Below, one piece after another: positions 831-7,145 of a stretch of DNA of 35,695 bases (the stretch's first letter is position 1; each line of letters begins with the position of its first letter). The DNA is from Humidesulfovibrio sp. (GTDB lineage Bacteria; Desulfobacterota; Desulfovibrionia; Desulfovibrionales; Desulfovibrionaceae), in NCBI RefSeq assembly GCF_031082295.1, contig NZ_JAVHLD010000032.1:1-35695 (forward strand). Direction: 5' to 3'. Made by a program: the position numbers and the translations under genes. Below the pieces are notes generated by a model. That model was not told the DNA's origin and did not search any database. It was given only the letters and a program-made list of their open reading frames with translations.

Positions 831-1280
831 CTAGCGCCCCAGCACGCCCGGCCAGTTGCGGTCGGCCTGGTCGATGTAGCCCTTCGTGTCCAGCAGCCAG
901 GTCTCGCGCACGGACTTGGAGTAGTTGAGGTACAGGTGCCCGTCCACGATGCTCCAAGCCTCCGGGTCGATGCCCGCGGTGGAGCCCTTGGCCACGGCGT
1001 AGGCGCAGTAGCCGCCGTATCGCGGCGCGTACTTCTCCGGGGTCGCCATGAACAGCCTCAGGTGTTCCGCCGAGGCGAAACGCCACTCCGCGCCGCTCCA
1101 CTTCAGGCTGTGCTCCTTCTTGCCCTCCACGAACCTGCCTTGGGTGAAGTAGGCCACCACGTCCGCGCCTTTCACCGCCACGACGCCAAAAAAGCCGGTG
1201 TTCACGGCGCTCTTGGCGGCCAGGGCGGTGCTCGCGGCGAGGCAGAGCAGCAGGGTCAGGATCACGGTGCGTAGACGCAT
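831..1280 (-). CDS. Secreted YHS domain protein, (seleno)protein-type subfamily
   Basis: A small exported protein of 149 residues. MRLRTVILTLLLCLAASTALAAKS is a clean signal peptide. The mature part is one YHS-type domain: KGADVVAYFTQGRFVEG, WRFASAEHLRLFMATPEKYAP, then GGYCAYAVAKG and DPEAWSIVDGHLYLNYS, ending NWPGV. This is the pattern of the YHS subfamily in which some relatives carry selenocysteine. Here the GGYC position is an ordinary Cys. YHS domains are generally thought to bind metal, and the exact role of this branch is not known. The start at 1280 is chosen because GGAGG lies a few bases upstream and the signal peptide begins there. A longer open frame upstream is only read-through in the frame overlapping the hydroxylase gene. 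It lies 23 bases after the hydroxylase stop, so it is probably the last gene of the four-gene minus-strand run beginning at 3509. Confidence 0.85.
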   Translation of the reverse strand: MRLRTVILTLLLCLAASTALAAKSAVNTGFFGVVAVKGADVVAYFTQGRFVEGKKEHSLKWSGAEWRFASAEHLRLFMATPEKYAPRYGGYCAYAVAKGSTAGIDPEAWSIVDGHLYLNYSKSVRETWLLDTKGYIDQADRNWPGVLGR

Positions 1281-1303
1281 AAGACCTCCGGTGTCGCAGG
1301 CGA

Positions 1304-2101
1304 TTACGCGAAGGGCATGCGCAACAGCCCCCAGAGCCCGGCCCAGGCGCGGTCGCGGAAGATGGTGAGGCCGATGGTCATGCCCGCGTGGCCCAGGGCT
1401 GGCTGGTCCAGGTAGGTGGCGAAGAGCCGGTCCCACCAGGGGAAGCAGAAGCCGAAGTTGGTGTTGGCCTCGCGCATGTCCGCGCTGTGGTGCACGCGGT
1501 GCATGTCCGGCGTGACGAGCGCCAGCCGCAGGGCGCGGTCCAGCGCCAGGGGCAGGCGAACATTGGCGTGGTTGAACATGGGCAGGGCGTTCAGCAGCAG
1601 CTCGAAGGCCAGCACCGCCCAGGCCGGGGGGCCGAGGGCAAGCACCAGCAGAAGCTTGTAGGCCAGGGACGCCAGCATCTCCAGCGGATGAAAGCGCACC
1701 GCCGTGGTCAGGTCGAGCACGGTGTCCGCGTGGTGCACGCGGTGCAGCCGCCAGAACCAGCGCCAGCGGTGCGAGGCCACATGCTGCCAGTAGATGGCGC
1801 AGTCGAGCAGCAGGATGGCGCACAGCCCGGCGGCGGGTTCCGGCAGCGGCAGCCCCAGCGCGGCAAGCAGGTTGAACAGCCCCCAGCCCTTGGCCTGGGC
1901 CAGGGCGGCCAGGCCCACGGGCAGCACCGGCACGCTCAGGCGGATGACGAGGGTGGACACGGCCACCAGCCCCAGGTTGGCGGGCCAGCGCAGCCGCCGC
2001 TCGGCCGGGCGCGCCAGGCGCGGGGCCAGTGCCTCCGCCAGGGCCAGGGCCAGCGCCACGCCCAGGAACGTGGACAGCCGCAGCAGCGCCTCGTGGTTCA
2101 T
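1304..2101 (-). CDS. Membrane sterol desaturase / fatty acid hydroxylase family protein
   Basis: An integral membrane di-iron oxygenase-type protein of 265 residues. Several hydrophobic helices surround the histidine clusters that define the family: HVASHRWRWFWRLHRVHH, RFHPLE, FNHANV and HRVHHS. These would hold two irons and hydroxylate or desaturate a lipid or other hydrophobic substrate. The substrate cannot be read from the sequence. The ATG overlaps the TGA of the upstream glycosyltransferase as ATGA, so the two are translationally coupled. Placement directly behind two arsenosugar-type glycosyltransferases makes a lipid linked to that pathway a reasonable guess, but this is inference only. 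Confidence 0.88.
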   Translation of the reverse strand: MNHEALLRLSTFLGVALALALAEALAPRLARPAERRLRWPANLGLVAVSTLVIRLSVPVLPVGLAALAQAKGWGLFNLLAALGLPLPEPAAGLCAILLLDCAIYWQHVASHRWRWFWRLHRVHHADTVLDLTTAVRFHPLEMLASLAYKLLLVLALGPPAWAVLAFELLLNALPMFNHANVRLPLALDRALRLALVTPDMHRVHHSADMREANTNFGFCFPWWDRLFATYLDQPALGHAGMTIGLTIFRDRAWAGLWGLLRMPFA

Positions 2102-2757
2102 GTTGCGCCCGCCTTTGCCCCGACGTCATCGGCCTCCAGCAGACGGGCGGCCTCCGGGTGGCTCTCCAGGTAGTCGGCCAGCCCGGCGCGGTCGTCGATG
2201 TCGCGCCAGGGCGGCAGCATGTAGGCCGTGCGGCCCGCCTCGCGCAGGGCGTCCAGGGTTTGGGCCAGCACCTTGGGCGTGCTCCAGTCGATGCCGGAGA
2301 AGATTTCCGGCGCGAAGCTGCCCCGACGCAGGGCGATGAGGTGGTAGCCGCCGTCCAGGGCCGGGCCGAGCACCGCGTCGTGGTCGTCCAGCCGCGCCAG
2401 CGCCTCGCTTAAGAACTCCGCGGGCCTGTCCGGGGCGTCGGTGCCCACCAGCACGGCGCGTTCCGCGCCACGGGCAAAGGCGTCCTCGAAGGCGTGGCGC
2501 ATGCGCAGCCCCAGGTCCTCGCCCCTCTGCGGCGCGTAGTCGTACCCGGAGCCCAGCCAGGACGAGAACTCCCCCCCGCGCCGGGCCGGGGCGAAGCTGA
2601 CAGTCACGGGCAGGCCGAGGCTCGCCGCCGCGGCCAGGGTTTCCTCCGCGAAATGCCGCGCCAGCCGCGCCGCCGCCGCATCGCCGACTTCGGCCGCCAG
2701 CCGCGTCTTGACCGCGCCGGGCTCGGGAAACTTCAAAAACACGATGACGCGCCTCAT
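2098..2757 (-). CDS. TIGR04282-type (DUF2064) nucleotidyl/glycosyl transferase of arsenosugar clusters
   Basis: A soluble 219-residue protein of the DUF2064/CofC-like fold. Family marks are KFPEPGAVKTRLA at the N terminus, LVGTDAPDRP in the middle and GPALDGGYHLIALRRG, followed by WSTPKVLAQTL and DIDDRAGLADYL near the end. This family co-occurs with the radical SAM protein ArsS and with TIGR04283 glycosyltransferases, and is therefore named as arsenosugar-associated. The activity itself has not, to my knowledge, been shown directly. The start MRRVIVFLKF is chosen because it is the family N terminus and its ATG overlaps the upstream TGA at 2754-2756. Its own stop overlaps the next start at 2099-2101. 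A much longer open frame extends upstream, but it is antisense-free read-through over the neighbouring gene in another frame. Confidence 0.92.
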   Translation of the reverse strand: MRRVIVFLKFPEPGAVKTRLAAEVGDAAAARLARHFAEETLAAAASLGLPVTVSFAPARRGGEFSSWLGSGYDYAPQRGEDLGLRMRHAFEDAFARGAERAVLVGTDAPDRPAEFLSEALARLDDHDAVLGPALDGGYHLIALRRGSFAPEIFSGIDWSTPKVLAQTLDALREAGRTAYMLPPWRDIDDRAGLADYLESHPEAARLLEADDVGAKAGAT

Positions 2758-3509
2758 GTGTAGAACCTCGCAAGGCGTTGCGGGCCGACGCCCAGGTGGT
2801 AGAGCGCGCGCAGCAGCACGTTGCGGGCGGTGCAGAACAGCAGGCCCTCGGCCTCCCAGCGCCGGGCCGAGGTGGACGCGCAGGCGGACAGAAGCCGGAT
2901 GCGGCGCCCGGAACGGCGCAGGCGGGTCATGAGCTCCAGGTCCTCCATGAGCGGGATGTCCGCGAAGCCGCCCACGGCCGCGAAGCAGTCCCGTCGCAGG
3001 AAGATGGCCTGGTCGCCGTAGGGCGCGCGCGTGAGGCGCGAGCGCAGGTTGGCCGCCCAGGCGATGAACCGAAGGCCGGGGCCGGGCGGGCCGCTCTCCG
3101 GCATGATGCGGAGCCGGAAGGCCCCGCCGCAGATTACCCCGCCGCCGGTATCGCCGGTCTCGGGCGCCAGGGCGTGCTCGATGCGCGCGAAGGCGTCCAG
3201 CGGCAGGCGCGTGTCCGCGTGCAGAAACAGCAGCACATCGCCGCGTGCCGCTGCGGCCCCGGCGTTCATCTGCCGCGCGCGGCCCTTGGCCGAGGCAAGG
3301 CCCTTCACGCCTGCTGTGTCCGCGCCCTCTCGCAGCGCCGCCAGGGTGGCCTGTTCCGGGTCGCCGTCCACCACGAGGATCTCCACGCTGCCAGCGCTCG
3401 GGCCGCCCGGGGCCGGAATGCGCGCCAAGTGCGCGAGCAGCGCGCCAATGCGCGCCTGTTCCCGGTACGCGGGGATGACGACGGAGAGGGCAGGGCGGGG
3501 GTGGTCCAT
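2754..3509 (-). CDS. TIGR04283-type family 2 glycosyltransferase of arsenosugar clusters
   Basis: A 251-residue GT-A fold glycosyltransferase. The N terminus has LSVVIPAYREQARIGALL and the nucleotide-binding ILVVDGDPEQATL. The subfamily hallmark KGRARQMNAGAAAARGDVLL-FLHADTRLP follows at about residues 75-105, with the HAD motif as the metal/sugar-nucleotide site. Later come YGDQAIFLRR and VGGFADIPLMEDLELMTRLR, the acceptor-side ED motif. It is the first gene of the minus-strand run 3509-831 and ends inside the ATGA overlap with the TIGR04282 gene. The pair is the usual companion of ArsS-type radical SAM proteins, consistent with the ArsS gene about 2.4 kb away. No Shine-Dalgarno sequence is visible before the ATG at 3509. 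Confidence 0.92.
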   Translation of the reverse strand: MDHPRPALSVVIPAYREQARIGALLAHLARIPAPGGPSAGSVEILVVDGDPEQATLAALREGADTAGVKGLASAKGRARQMNAGAAAARGDVLLFLHADTRLPLDAFARIEHALAPETGDTGGGVICGGAFRLRIMPESGPPGPGLRFIAWAANLRSRLTRAPYGDQAIFLRRDCFAAVGGFADIPLMEDLELMTRLRRSGRRIRLLSACASTSARRWEAEGLLFCTARNVLLRALYHLGVGPQRLARFYT

Positions 3510-4330: not shown

Positions 4331-5806
4331 ATGGCAAACTACGACTACGACATCGCCATCATCGGCGGCGGAGCGGGCGGGCTTTCCGTGGCCGCCGGAG
4401 CGGCCCAGTTGGGCGCGCGCACCCTGCTCGTCGAGCGCGAGGAGCACCTCGGCGGGGATTGCCTGTTCTACGGCTGCGTGCCGAGCAAGACCCTCATCGC
4501 CACCGCCAACGCTCGCCACGTCATGTCGCGCGCGCAGGATTTCGGCCTGCCCGCCGTGGACCTGCCGCCCGTGGACTTCGCCAAGGTGCGCGAGCGCATC
4601 GAGAGCGTCATCATGGGCATCCGTGGGCACGACTCCATCGAGCGCTTCTGCGGCCTGGGGGCCGAGGTGCGCTTCGGGGCGGCGCGCTTCGTCGACGATC
4701 ATGTGGCTGAAATCGACGGCAAGCGCGTGAGCGCGGCCAAATGGGTCGTGGCCACGGGCGCCCGCGCGCAGGTGCCGCCCATTCCCGGCCTGGCCGAGAC
4801 GCCGTTTCTGACCAATCGCGAAATCTTTTCGCTGGAACGCCTGCCGGAGCGCCTGGTGGTGCTGGGCGGCGGGCCCATCGCCGTGGAGCTGGCCCAGGCC
4901 TTCCGCCGCCTGGGCTCCCAGGTGGACGTCGTCCAGCGCTCCACGAGCATCCTGACCCGCGACGACGCGGACATGGCCGCCGAGGTGCGGCAGACCCTGG
5001 AGGCCGAGGGCGTGCGCTTTCATCTGGGCGCGGCGCTTGCTTCCGTGGGGCTGGAGAAGGGGCGCAAGGTCGCGCGCTTCACCCAGGACGGGCAGGAGCG
5101 CAGCGTCGGCGGCGACGTCCTGCTGGTGGCCCTGGGCCGCACGCCCAACGTGGAGGGCCTGAGGCTGGAACAGGCCGGAGTCGAGTACGGCCCCAAGGGC
5201 ATCACCGTGGACGCGCGCCTGCGCACCAGCCGACCGCACATCTTCGCCTGCGGCGACGTGACCGGGGCATGGCAGTTCACCCACGCGGCCGGGTACGAGG
5301 CGGGCGTGGTGGTGGCGAACGCAATCTTCCGCCTGCCGCGCAAGGCCGACTACACCTGGATGCCCTGGTGCACCTACACCGAGCCGGGCCTGGGCGGCCT
5401 GGGCCTGAACGAGGCCGCGGCCCGGAAGGCGGGCCTGAAGCCCGGCGTGGACTACCGGGTGGTGGTGGAGCATTTCGCGGACAACGACAAGGCCCGGGCC
5501 GAGGCCGAGACCGGGGGCAGGCTCAAGCTGCTGCTGGATTCCGGGGGCAAGCCGCTGGGCGTGCAGATCGTCGGTTCCGGCGCGGGCGAGCTTTTGGGCG
5601 AGTGGGCGGCGGTGCTGGCGGGCAAGGTCTCGCTGACCACGCTGGCGGGCACCACGCACCCGTACCCCACGCGCTGCGAGTCGGCCAAGGCCGTGGCCGG
5701 GCGCATCGTGGGCGAAAAGCTGTTCTCGCCCACGGTCAAGAAGGCCCTGCACTACGTGTTCGGGCTCAAGGGCCGGGCCTGCGTGCCGGCGGAGCCGCCT
5801 GCCTAA
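4331..5806 (+). CDS. FAD-dependent pyridine nucleotide-disulfide oxidoreductase, mercuric reductase-like
   Basis: A cytoplasmic flavoprotein of 491 residues, the normal size for the dihydrolipoamide dehydrogenase/mercuric reductase group without a metal-binding front domain. FAD-binding IIGGGAGGLSVAAGAA is at residues 9-24. The redox pair lies in GGDCLFYGCVPSK. The NAD(P) site is VVLGGGPIAVELAQAF, and the second FAD motif is HIFACGDVTGAWQFTHAA. At the C terminus the dehydrogenase His-Glu region reads HPYPTRCE. The catalytic base His of true dihydrolipoamide dehydrogenases is replaced by Tyr, so it is probably not Lpd. No C-terminal CC pair for Hg(II) is present either, so the substrate is open. 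The start at 4331 has AAGGAGG upstream. The stop is 25 bases from the end of the convergent ArsS gene. Confidence 0.92.
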   Translation: MANYDYDIAIIGGGAGGLSVAAGAAQLGARTLLVEREEHLGGDCLFYGCVPSKTLIATANARHVMSRAQDFGLPAVDLPPVDFAKVRERIESVIMGIRGHDSIERFCGLGAEVRFGAARFVDDHVAEIDGKRVSAAKWVVATGARAQVPPIPGLAETPFLTNREIFSLERLPERLVVLGGGPIAVELAQAFRRLGSQVDVVQRSTSILTRDDADMAAEVRQTLEAEGVRFHLGAALASVGLEKGRKVARFTQDGQERSVGGDVLLVALGRTPNVEGLRLEQAGVEYGPKGITVDARLRTSRPHIFACGDVTGAWQFTHAAGYEAGVVVANAIFRLPRKADYTWMPWCTYTEPGLGGLGLNEAAARKAGLKPGVDYRVVVEHFADNDKARAEAETGGRLKLLLDSGGKPLGVQIVGSGAGELLGEWAAVLAGKVSLTTLAGTTHPYPTRCESAKAVAGRIVGEKLFSPTVKKALHYVFGLKGRACVPAEPPA

Positions 5807-5821
5807 ATGCGCGTGGTGCTC

Positions 5822-5840
5822 GCGGCCTGAACTAGGCCGC
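5822..5840 (-). promoter_or_regulatory. Candidate bacterial SECIS hairpin of arsS
   Basis: On the minus strand a perfect 7-base-pair stem (5840-5834 with 5828-5822, GCGGCCU and AGGCCGC) carries a five-base loop AGUUC. The loop begins 19 bases after the in-frame UGA at 5855-5853 and has G as its second base. Both fit the published bSECIS rules as I recall them: a loop 16-37 bases after UGA and G among the first two loop bases. No T-run follows on either strand, so it is a poor terminator. Confidence 0.65.
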
Positions 5841-6806
5841 CACTGAGCCGCCTCAGGTGAAGCCCGACCCGGCGGTGCAGGCGAAGCAGTGCTCGCCCAC
5901 GGGGATGGCCGCGCCTTCGTCGTGGGCCAGATAGTCGCGCACGTGCCGCGCCCCGCTGGCGGGGATCCCTGCGGCCTGATGGAAGTCGCAGTCGTAGAGG
6001 CTGCCGTCCCACCCCACGGACACGATGTTGCGGCACATGAGCGAGCAGAGCACGCCGGGGTTGAAGCGCTGGCGCAGCAAATCCATGTAGCCGCCCAGGT
6101 TGCCGGAGCGCTCAAGCCAGTTGTGGAAGCGCCCCAGCGGCACGTTGGCGAAGACGAAGAGCGAGTCGAAGCGGATGCCGCGGCGGTCGAGGGCCTGGCG
6201 GAAGGTCCTGGTGGCCGAGGCCTGGGCGGGCGGCAGGAAGGCGCCGCCGGGATTGGACACCAGGTGCAGTTCCAGTCCGGCGCCCTGCCCGAAGCCGCGT
6301 GAATTCAGCCTGTGCAGCATGTCGAGGCTCTTTTCGAACACCCCCGCGCCACGGATCGCCTCCACCTGCCCGGCGTTGACCGCGGGCAGCGACGCCCCGA
6401 TGCTCCAGCCGCCCTTGGCCAGCAGGTCCACCAGCGCGTCGCGGCCGTCCATCTCCAGCAGCGCCAGCAGGTTGGTGCGGAAGATTCGCCCCGTGGCCTT
6501 GTTCGCCGCCAGGGGGCCGAGGTGCGTCAGCAGGTGCGCCAGGTCCGGGTTCAGCTCCGGCGCGCCGCCGGTGACGTCCACCGAGGCGAAGGGGACGCGC
6601 CGGGCCAGGGCGATGACCTCGTCCATGGTGGCGCGGCTCATGGCCTCGGTGCGCGTCGGCCCGGCCTCCAGGTGGCAGTGGCGGCAGGATAGGTTGCAGG
6701 CATAGCCCACGTTGACCTGCAGGCAGTCTGCGCGGCCCTTGCGCAGGCTCAGGCCGTGTTCCGCCAGGGTTTCGGCGAAGGTCATCTCGCTCGTGGGCGC
6801 GCTCAT
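5832..6806 (-). CDS. arsS: Arsenosugar biosynthesis radical SAM selenoprotein ArsS (UGA recoded)
   Basis: A radical SAM enzyme that in characterised relatives joins the 5'-deoxyadenosyl group to dimethylated arsenic. The iron-sulfur motif is C37-x3-C41-x2-C44 (YACNLSCRHCHLEAGPT). VTGGAPELNPDLAHLL is the conserved central strand. The C-terminal Cys-rich half has CSLMCRNIVSVGWDGSLYDC and HCFACTAGSG. The frame meets TGA at 5853-5855 after GSGFT but continues GGSVAA to TAG at 5832-5834. Family members end in AGSS-Cys-GG or AGSS-Sec-GG, so the UGA sits exactly at the known Cys/Sec position and the full product is 324 residues with Sec318. A hairpin of SECIS type follows. Ending the gene at 5853 would cut it short by seven residues. 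It lies nine bases after the peroxidase-like gene. No arsenic methyltransferase gene (arsM) is in the window. Confidence 0.9.
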
Positions 6807-6815
6807 GAGGCTGGC

Positions 6816-7145
6816 CTACAGGGTCTTCTTGTCCAGGATGTTGCGCATCTGCACGCCGTGCACCAGGGTGGCCCCTCCGCGGATGGCCGCGGCCACGTGC
6901 ACGGCCTCGGTCATCTCGTCGGGGTTGGAGCCCTTTTCCAGGCAGGTGTTGGTGTAGGCGTCGATGCAGTAGGGACACTGCACCGCGTGGGCCACGGCCA
7001 GGGCGATGAGGGCCTTTTCGCGCTCGGAGAGCGCGCCCTCGGCAAAGACCTCGCCGTAGTAGGCGAAGAACTTCTTCGCCGCCTCTGGCGCGTTCTTGCC
7101 GATGTCGCCGAATTTGGCCAGGTCCTGCGGGTTGTAGTAGTCCAT
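6816..7145 (-). CDS. Arsenosugar-associated peroxidase-like protein (AhpD/CMD fold, TIGR04169-type)
   Basis: A 109-residue protein of the carboxymuconolactone decarboxylase/AhpD fold. It opens MDYYNPQDLAKFGDIGKNAPE and has REKALIALAVAHAVQCPYCIDAYTNTCLEKG with the redox CPYC pair and downstream His-rich helix region EAVHVAAAIRGGATLVHGVQ. AhpD-type proteins reduce peroxides or partner disulfides with this CxxC. The branch found beside ArsS is annotated from context, with some relatives carrying selenocysteine. Here both positions are Cys. AAGGAG lies eight bases before the ATG. It sits between MsrAB (50 bases upstream) and ArsS (9 bases downstream), so the three probably share a transcript. The product would supply or protect thiol/selenol chemistry for ArsS, which is inference. 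Confidence 0.9.
   Translation of the reverse strand: MDYYNPQDLAKFGDIGKNAPEAAKKFFAYYGEVFAEGALSEREKALIALAVAHAVQCPYCIDAYTNTCLEKGSNPDEMTEAVHVAAAIRGGATLVHGVQMRNILDKKTL

Follow-up and report, generated by a model that had tools for sequence, protein, structure and literature searches.

The window analyzed here, the whole 35,695-nucleotide stretch of contig NZ_JAVHLD010000032.1 from Humidesulfovibrio sp., carries on its minus strand arsS (5832..6806), a gene that matches TIGR04167, encodes a radical SAM (seleno)protein of 324 residues when an in-frame UGA is read as selenocysteine (Sec), and has UAG as its stop codon. In the table of open reading frames, the ATG frame runs from 6806 to 5853 on this strand and yields 317 amino acids with the C-terminal end HCFACTAGSGFT; it is followed by TGA (5855-5853), by GGC GGC TCA GTG GCG GCC, which encodes GGSVAA, and by TAG (5834-5832). 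A preliminary description of this DNA had reported this frame break and continuation, and both are exact to the base in the sequence and the table. It had also warned of truncation at residue 317, the length of the ATG frame up to TGA, so that a routine gene call would end ArsS just before Sec. With TGA translated as U, the 324-residue product scores 331.7 bits against TIGR04167 (cut-off, 300) over positions 2-303 of the 303-position profile, and a scan of the gene with one TGA inside the match gives 326.8 bits; NCBI names the family "arsenosugar biosynthesis radical SAM (seleno)protein ArsS" (rSAM_SeCys). The cysteines of the radical SAM cluster motif CxxxCxxC (C37, C41, and C44) are invariant in all 53 of the chosen aligned ArsS proteins, as are C258, C273, C307, C310, and U/C318. 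An AlphaFold2 model of the protein has a mean pLDDT of 93.6, with residues 321-324 below 50, and a Foldseek search with this model returned radical SAM enzymes, such as SkfB.

Only 9 bases separate the arsS start codon from the stop of the gene for an arsenosugar biosynthesis-associated peroxidase-like protein (6816..7145, minus; TIGR04169, 197.3 bits, cut-off 120), and two genes for arsenosugar biosynthesis glycosyltransferases are found on the same strand, one of the TIGR04283 family (2754..3509; 220.7 bits, cut-off 182) and one of the TIGR04282 family (2098..2778, frame as scanned; 193.4 bits, cut-off 134). ArsM is encoded on another contig of the same genome (L211; 334.3 bits, cut-off 263), and the arsenosugar biosynthesis set is thus present as TIGR04169, TIGR04282, and TIGR04283 near arsS together with ArsM in the genome. 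Two further frames may be mentioned. At 831-1304 (minus) lies a member of the YHS domain-containing (seleno)protein family NF041384 (159.5 bits), by eye the Cys form (GYC). A second ArsM-like methyltransferase frame of this genome (L212, C44:2244-2891) scores 154.1 bits, below the cut-off, and has one in-frame TGA within the match, AWAA-U-REG, which by eye corresponds to the Cys of ECLAGA in the full ArsM; an 8-pair hairpin lies 23 nt downstream at -6.7 kcal/mol, short of the -7.5 cut, and this frame is possibly a further selenoprotein.

By its gene content, the cell is predicted to be able to read UGA as Sec. The preliminary description had called for a search for selA, selB, selC, and selD, and all four components are encoded in the genome: tRNA-Sec (80.9 bits, gathering threshold 47), SelB (384.6 bits) and SelA (584.1 bits), both over their cut-offs, and SelD, also over its cut-off (327.4 bits) and with one TGA inside (L026, C3:61675-62604, minus). 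The UGA of selD sits at GUAAK, which we take to be the usual Sec site of SelD, with a SECIS-like hairpin of -13.3 kcal/mol downstream; Sec-containing SelD is a known form.

Sec and Cys at residue 318

The UGA codon at 5853..5855 (minus) specifies residue 318, and the corresponding alignment column is C or U in 53 of the 53 chosen proteins, with Gly 320 likewise invariant. Among ArsS loci found by profile in the family and the phylum, C or U stands at the site in 84 of 85, three of the 84 having been judged by eye. The exception is a divergent locus (L062, G028:C1:599000-600700) that scores 188.5 bits, below the cut-off; its C-terminal end, CLGCVSGTGPAGLIWTA, shows no Cys and no Sec at the position where other copies have them. 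The family search found ArsS over the cut-off in 33 of 288 genomes, of whose loci 9, from 8 genomes, carry Sec and 25 carry Cys. Both forms occur within the same genus, Sec copies in G000, G153 (two), G159, and G164 and Cys copies in G156, G158, and G165; the two Sec-type copies of G153 (L056 and L059) differ from each other. Relatives with a true stop at this place and no GG after it, which the preliminary description had proposed as counterevidence, were sought among the other same-genus Sec loci, and all four (L056, L057, L059, and L060) continue as U-GG[AS], with the same GFT ahead of U. As side observations, L057 and L153 are identical over the 47 nt after UGA, and L055, the Sec copy of G141, has GFT-U-NG in place of U-GG, its best hairpin lying 25 nt after UGA, farther than usual, at -7.0 kcal/mol.

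For comparison across a wider range, genome contigs were scanned with a pattern that required UGA, giving at least 118 loci; among the matches listed, 116 have an ArsS C terminus with UGA at this place, and as these make up 116 of the 125 Sec copies compared here, the set of 125 is uninformative on how frequent Sec is. Five contig-end fragments with no tblastn match (L101, L131, L137, L143, and L155) were counted as Sec ArsS by their C-terminal motif alone. Over the first 60 nt, 122 of the 125 Sec rows are unique, and 130 of 134 in an enlarged set. Left out of the counts were L106 and L171 (pattern matches that are not ArsS), L062 (no motif), and L225, L228, and L238 (no motif match, by eye Cys forms); L238 (G566:C11:80050-81350) is an ArsS-like frame below the cut-off with a TAG inside. 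The AGSS-C/U-GG ending that the preliminary description had given for the family stands in part: AGSS-U-GG does exist, mainly in Bacillota and Actinomycetota, whereas the ending in the clade of the window is GFT-U-GG. Within TIGR04167, the Sec copies of Bacillota and Actinomycetota and 53 of 55 Cys copies have GSS before the site, and the clade of the window differs in having GFT before Sec.

A quick maximum-likelihood tree built from 95 chosen rows places the window in a 39-row clade (34 Sec and 5 Cys; SH-aLRT 100), away from where the Cys copies of the same genus fall; rows for the ArsS trees were chosen or randomly thinned, and the search was short. The separate places of same-genus Sec and Cys copies indicate older lineages rather than simple codon swaps. 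Within the clade, the five Cys rows carry GF[TS]-C-GG flanks and are likely Sec/Cys swaps. Other Sec copies, with GSS-U or GST-U, are placed in the Cys part of the tree, those with GSS-U being mainly from Bacillota and Actinomycetota. An earlier 92-row tree had contained a "pure Sec clade", 38 rows that were all of the Sec form; this was withdrawn when the addition of 20 loci brought in the five Cys rows, and the sampling of that tree is suspect because most of its Sec rows were fetched with the UGA pattern and its Cys rows from the phylum were the top-scoring ones. Nor did a survey of SelB link Cys copies to loss of the Sec machinery, as SelB was found in 47 of the 51 genomes surveyed and does not set carriers of Sec copies apart from carriers of Cys copies; the four with no SelB match (G164, G447, G242, and G248) are 73-82% complete, and G164 and G447 hold Sec copies.

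The predicted SECIS hairpin and its covariation

Behind the UGA lies the predicted bacterial SECIS hairpin (5822..5840, minus), GCGGCCU-AGUUC-AGGCCGC, whose arms at 5840-5834 and 5828-5822 form seven perfect pairs around a loop at 5833-5829, 19 nt after UGA, with a folding energy of -12.5 kcal/mol. In the loop, AGUUC, G is second and is followed by U. The stem, loop, distance, and second-position G reported in the preliminary description are all present in the sequence, as is the reported overlap of the hairpin with the final codons and the stop, the 5' arm being coding with UAG (5834-5832) at the apex; the hairpin also lies directly behind a convergent open reading frame, as had been noted, this frame ending at 5806 with 15 bases between. 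According to the passages on bacterial elements in PMC13188914, a bacterial SECIS has a loop of 3-9 nt, an upper stem of 4-16 bp, and 16-37 nt from UGA to the loop, with G in the first two loop positions and an energy of -7.5 kcal/mol or below, and the rules given in the preliminary description (16-37 bases, G in the first two loop bases) agree with these. The arsS hairpin lies within all four of these limits, with its 5-nt loop and 7-bp stem, G in second place, 19 nt, and -12.5 kcal/mol.

Taken alone, the hairpin is only moderately unusual and not beyond chance, and it is the comparative evidence that makes the case. When the 49-nt stretch is folded with RNAfold, its z is -1.26, and 24 of 200 shuffled versions fold just as well. 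When the 70 nt after UGA were shuffled with dinucleotides preserved (n = 1,000), a model hairpin of equal or greater stability appeared in 16 shuffles, and 121 passed the model; among the 822 TGA triplets on both strands of the window, 80 pass the SECIS model and 13, the one in arsS included, are as stable. An Rfam scan of 5750-5950 returned no SECIS match at E values up to 5.

Across relatives, a hairpin that passes all four criteria follows the site in 47 of the 125 listed Sec copies vs 2 of 55 Cys copies; 78 of the 125 miss the strict energy cut, and 8 have no hairpin in a scan that allowed neither bulge nor mismatch. For the enlarged set, the counts are 122 of 134 listed Sec copies vs 15 of 63 Cys copies for a stem of at least four pairs whose loop lies 16-23 nt on, and 88 of 134 vs 1 of 63 for one of at least six pairs. 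The Sec and Cys copies that share the clade of the window amount to a natural experiment, in which the hairpin lies behind most Sec codons and reaches model strength, -7.5 kcal/mol or below, behind none of the five Cys codons. One of these five Cys rows (L219) retains CCTGAGGTC after its Cys codon, but without a 4-pair stem; this is possibly a remnant of a SECIS.

Covariation was assessed in two gap-free sets, the first of 35 unique rows in which UGA is followed by G and, three bases on, by C, and the second, in the register of the window, of 8 rows hand-picked by loop register from 13 with UAG-UU, a choice that leans towards structure. The covariation score of the 35-row set was 0.280 vs 0.142 when shuffled, with 0 of 500 shuffles as high, and that of the 8-row set, in which five of seven pairs have changed on both sides, was likewise reached by 0 of 500, although related rows can beat such shuffles without any structure. 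As for pairs with a change in both partners, 34 of 500 shuffles attained the number seen in the 35-row set, whose loop-adjacent pair is uninformative, since the sets were chosen by apex letters. With the partner shifted by one column, the share of paired cells fell to 49.0-50.6% in the 35-row set (82.4% in register) and to 37.5-41.1% in the 8-row set (92.9% in register). For the predicted identity of the hairpin as a SECIS, this comparison across relatives is decisive.

The stop codon at the hairpin apex

The stop codon UAG of arsS (5832..5834, minus) lies within the SECIS hairpin, with its A and G as the first two bases of the loop. This arrangement is widespread among the 125 listed Sec copies: 103 of them have a next in-frame stop that shares one or more bases with the best hairpin, and in 75 of these it meets the loop itself; 14 have no such overlap, and the remaining 8 are those with no hairpin in the scan. 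Exactly six residues separate Sec from the stop in 89 of 130 unique listed Sec copies. In this six-residue register, the base after a UGA stop is G in 61 of 61 and the base after a UAG stop is U or G in 27 of 27, with AG[G/U] formed in 87 of these 88 (AGA in the other), and one further copy has UAA. By comparison, 28 Cys copies end with UGA at one of the two usual places, and G follows this stop in 10 of them.

The overlap follows from the meeting of two ordinary constraints. The tail after the site is five or six residues long in 50 of 63 Cys copies, and as the Cys copies share this short tail, its length looks like a constraint of the protein. The stop comes to lie within the SECIS because the tail, which in both Sec and Cys copies is mostly five or six residues long, meets a SECIS loop that mostly lies 16-23 nt after UGA. 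It is the hairpin and not the stop whose position is fixed, as five copies (L069, L087, L088, L113, and L154) keep the hairpin 19-20 nt after UGA with a stop farther downstream. We consider it somewhat probable that, in ArsS selenoproteins, UAG-[U/G] or UGA-G[U/G] serves both as the stop and as the AG[G/U] of the loop, such that selection on the SECIS fixes the stop codon and the bases next to it and termination takes place at the binding site of SelB. It is also possible that SelB bound at the apex tunes termination or the release of the ribosome.

Predicted Sec decoding in ArsS and known systems

The preliminary description had called ArsS a probable selenoprotein, and the family site, the sel genes, the SECIS criteria, the covariation, and the Cys counterparts agree with this. 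From the sequence comparisons, it is very probable, close to certain, that arsS encodes a Sec-containing ArsS in which UGA 5855-5853 is recoded by way of the hairpin 19 nt on and translation stops at the UAG of the apex. At this UGA, the SECIS hairpin would anchor SelB and Sec-tRNA-Sec for the insertion of Sec as residue 318, after which the ribosome would melt the hairpin, add GGSVAA, and terminate at UAG. Residue 318 closes a conserved tail with Cys258, Cys273, Cys307, and Cys310, and we infer that Sec318 most likely acts either on the trivalent arsenic substrate, by binding or reducing it, or as a ligand of an auxiliary iron-sulphur cluster, the two roles being about equally probable. Adenosylation of arsenic is the reaction named for ArsS in the relevant passage of PMC12159101, which cites Cheng et al. 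2021.

That the UGA is a true stop, with ArsS ending at residue 317 and GGSVAA arising by chance, would be in line with the normal use of UGA as a stop elsewhere, and the 317-residue product would still have its radical SAM core and all the conserved Cys residues that precede position 318. This is nevertheless very unlikely, given that the Cys/Sec site and Gly 320 are invariant in the 53 aligned proteins, that the five clade members with a Cys codon read on through the same flanks, and that the hairpin covaries. It is more improbable still that the hairpin is a transcription terminator rather than a SECIS: it is G+C-rich and lies between the ends of two convergent reading frames, but a terminator scan of 5600-6100 was empty, there is no T run after the hairpin on either strand, and relatives show the hairpin again at a similar spacing from UGA, with few cases behind Cys copies. 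Just as remote is the reading in which a second in-frame UGA of relatives, at the place where the window has UAG, also encodes Sec and gives rise to double selenoproteins. The next in-frame stop is indeed TGA in 63 of the 125 listed Sec copies, yet the other copies have UAG or UAA at the same codon place, and the frames past the second UGA share no common length. Moreover, a 4-pair stem at SECIS distance follows the second UGA in 10 of 60 vs 57 of 60 for the first, and a 6-pair stem in 0 of 60 vs 40 of 60.

By overlapping, the stop codon and the SECIS apex provide a compact example of double coding, which is relevant to prediction tools that look for a SECIS within the coding region or that need a long stretch of read-through. 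A narrow search of the open-licence literature, in the portions of text it returned, gave no prior account of a stop codon inside a bacterial SECIS or of this dual use of stop and SECIS letters, and we make no claim of priority. Bacterial SECIS elements in general lie within coding regions, as stated in the review passages of PMC13188914, whereas the arsS hairpin has a 3' arm that lies beyond UAG and is untranslated. That the family contains selenoproteins is not new: two reviews, PMC13188914 and PMC9312934, give "Radical SAM domain protein, TIGR04167" in their tables as a predicted selenoprotein family with the motif GxxU (e.g., AAR34688.1). The arsS of the window is alike in kind to this TIGR04167 ArsS, as it passes the cut-off, has a Sec codon at the family site, and has arsenosugar biosynthesis genes as neighbors. 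The radical SAM protein of Geobacter sulfurreducens is a known selenoprotein that one such prediction method missed, its Sec lying too near the carboxyl end for the method according to the relevant passage of PMC1242214, and the ArsS described here resembles it, by that description, in likewise having Sec near the carboxyl end.
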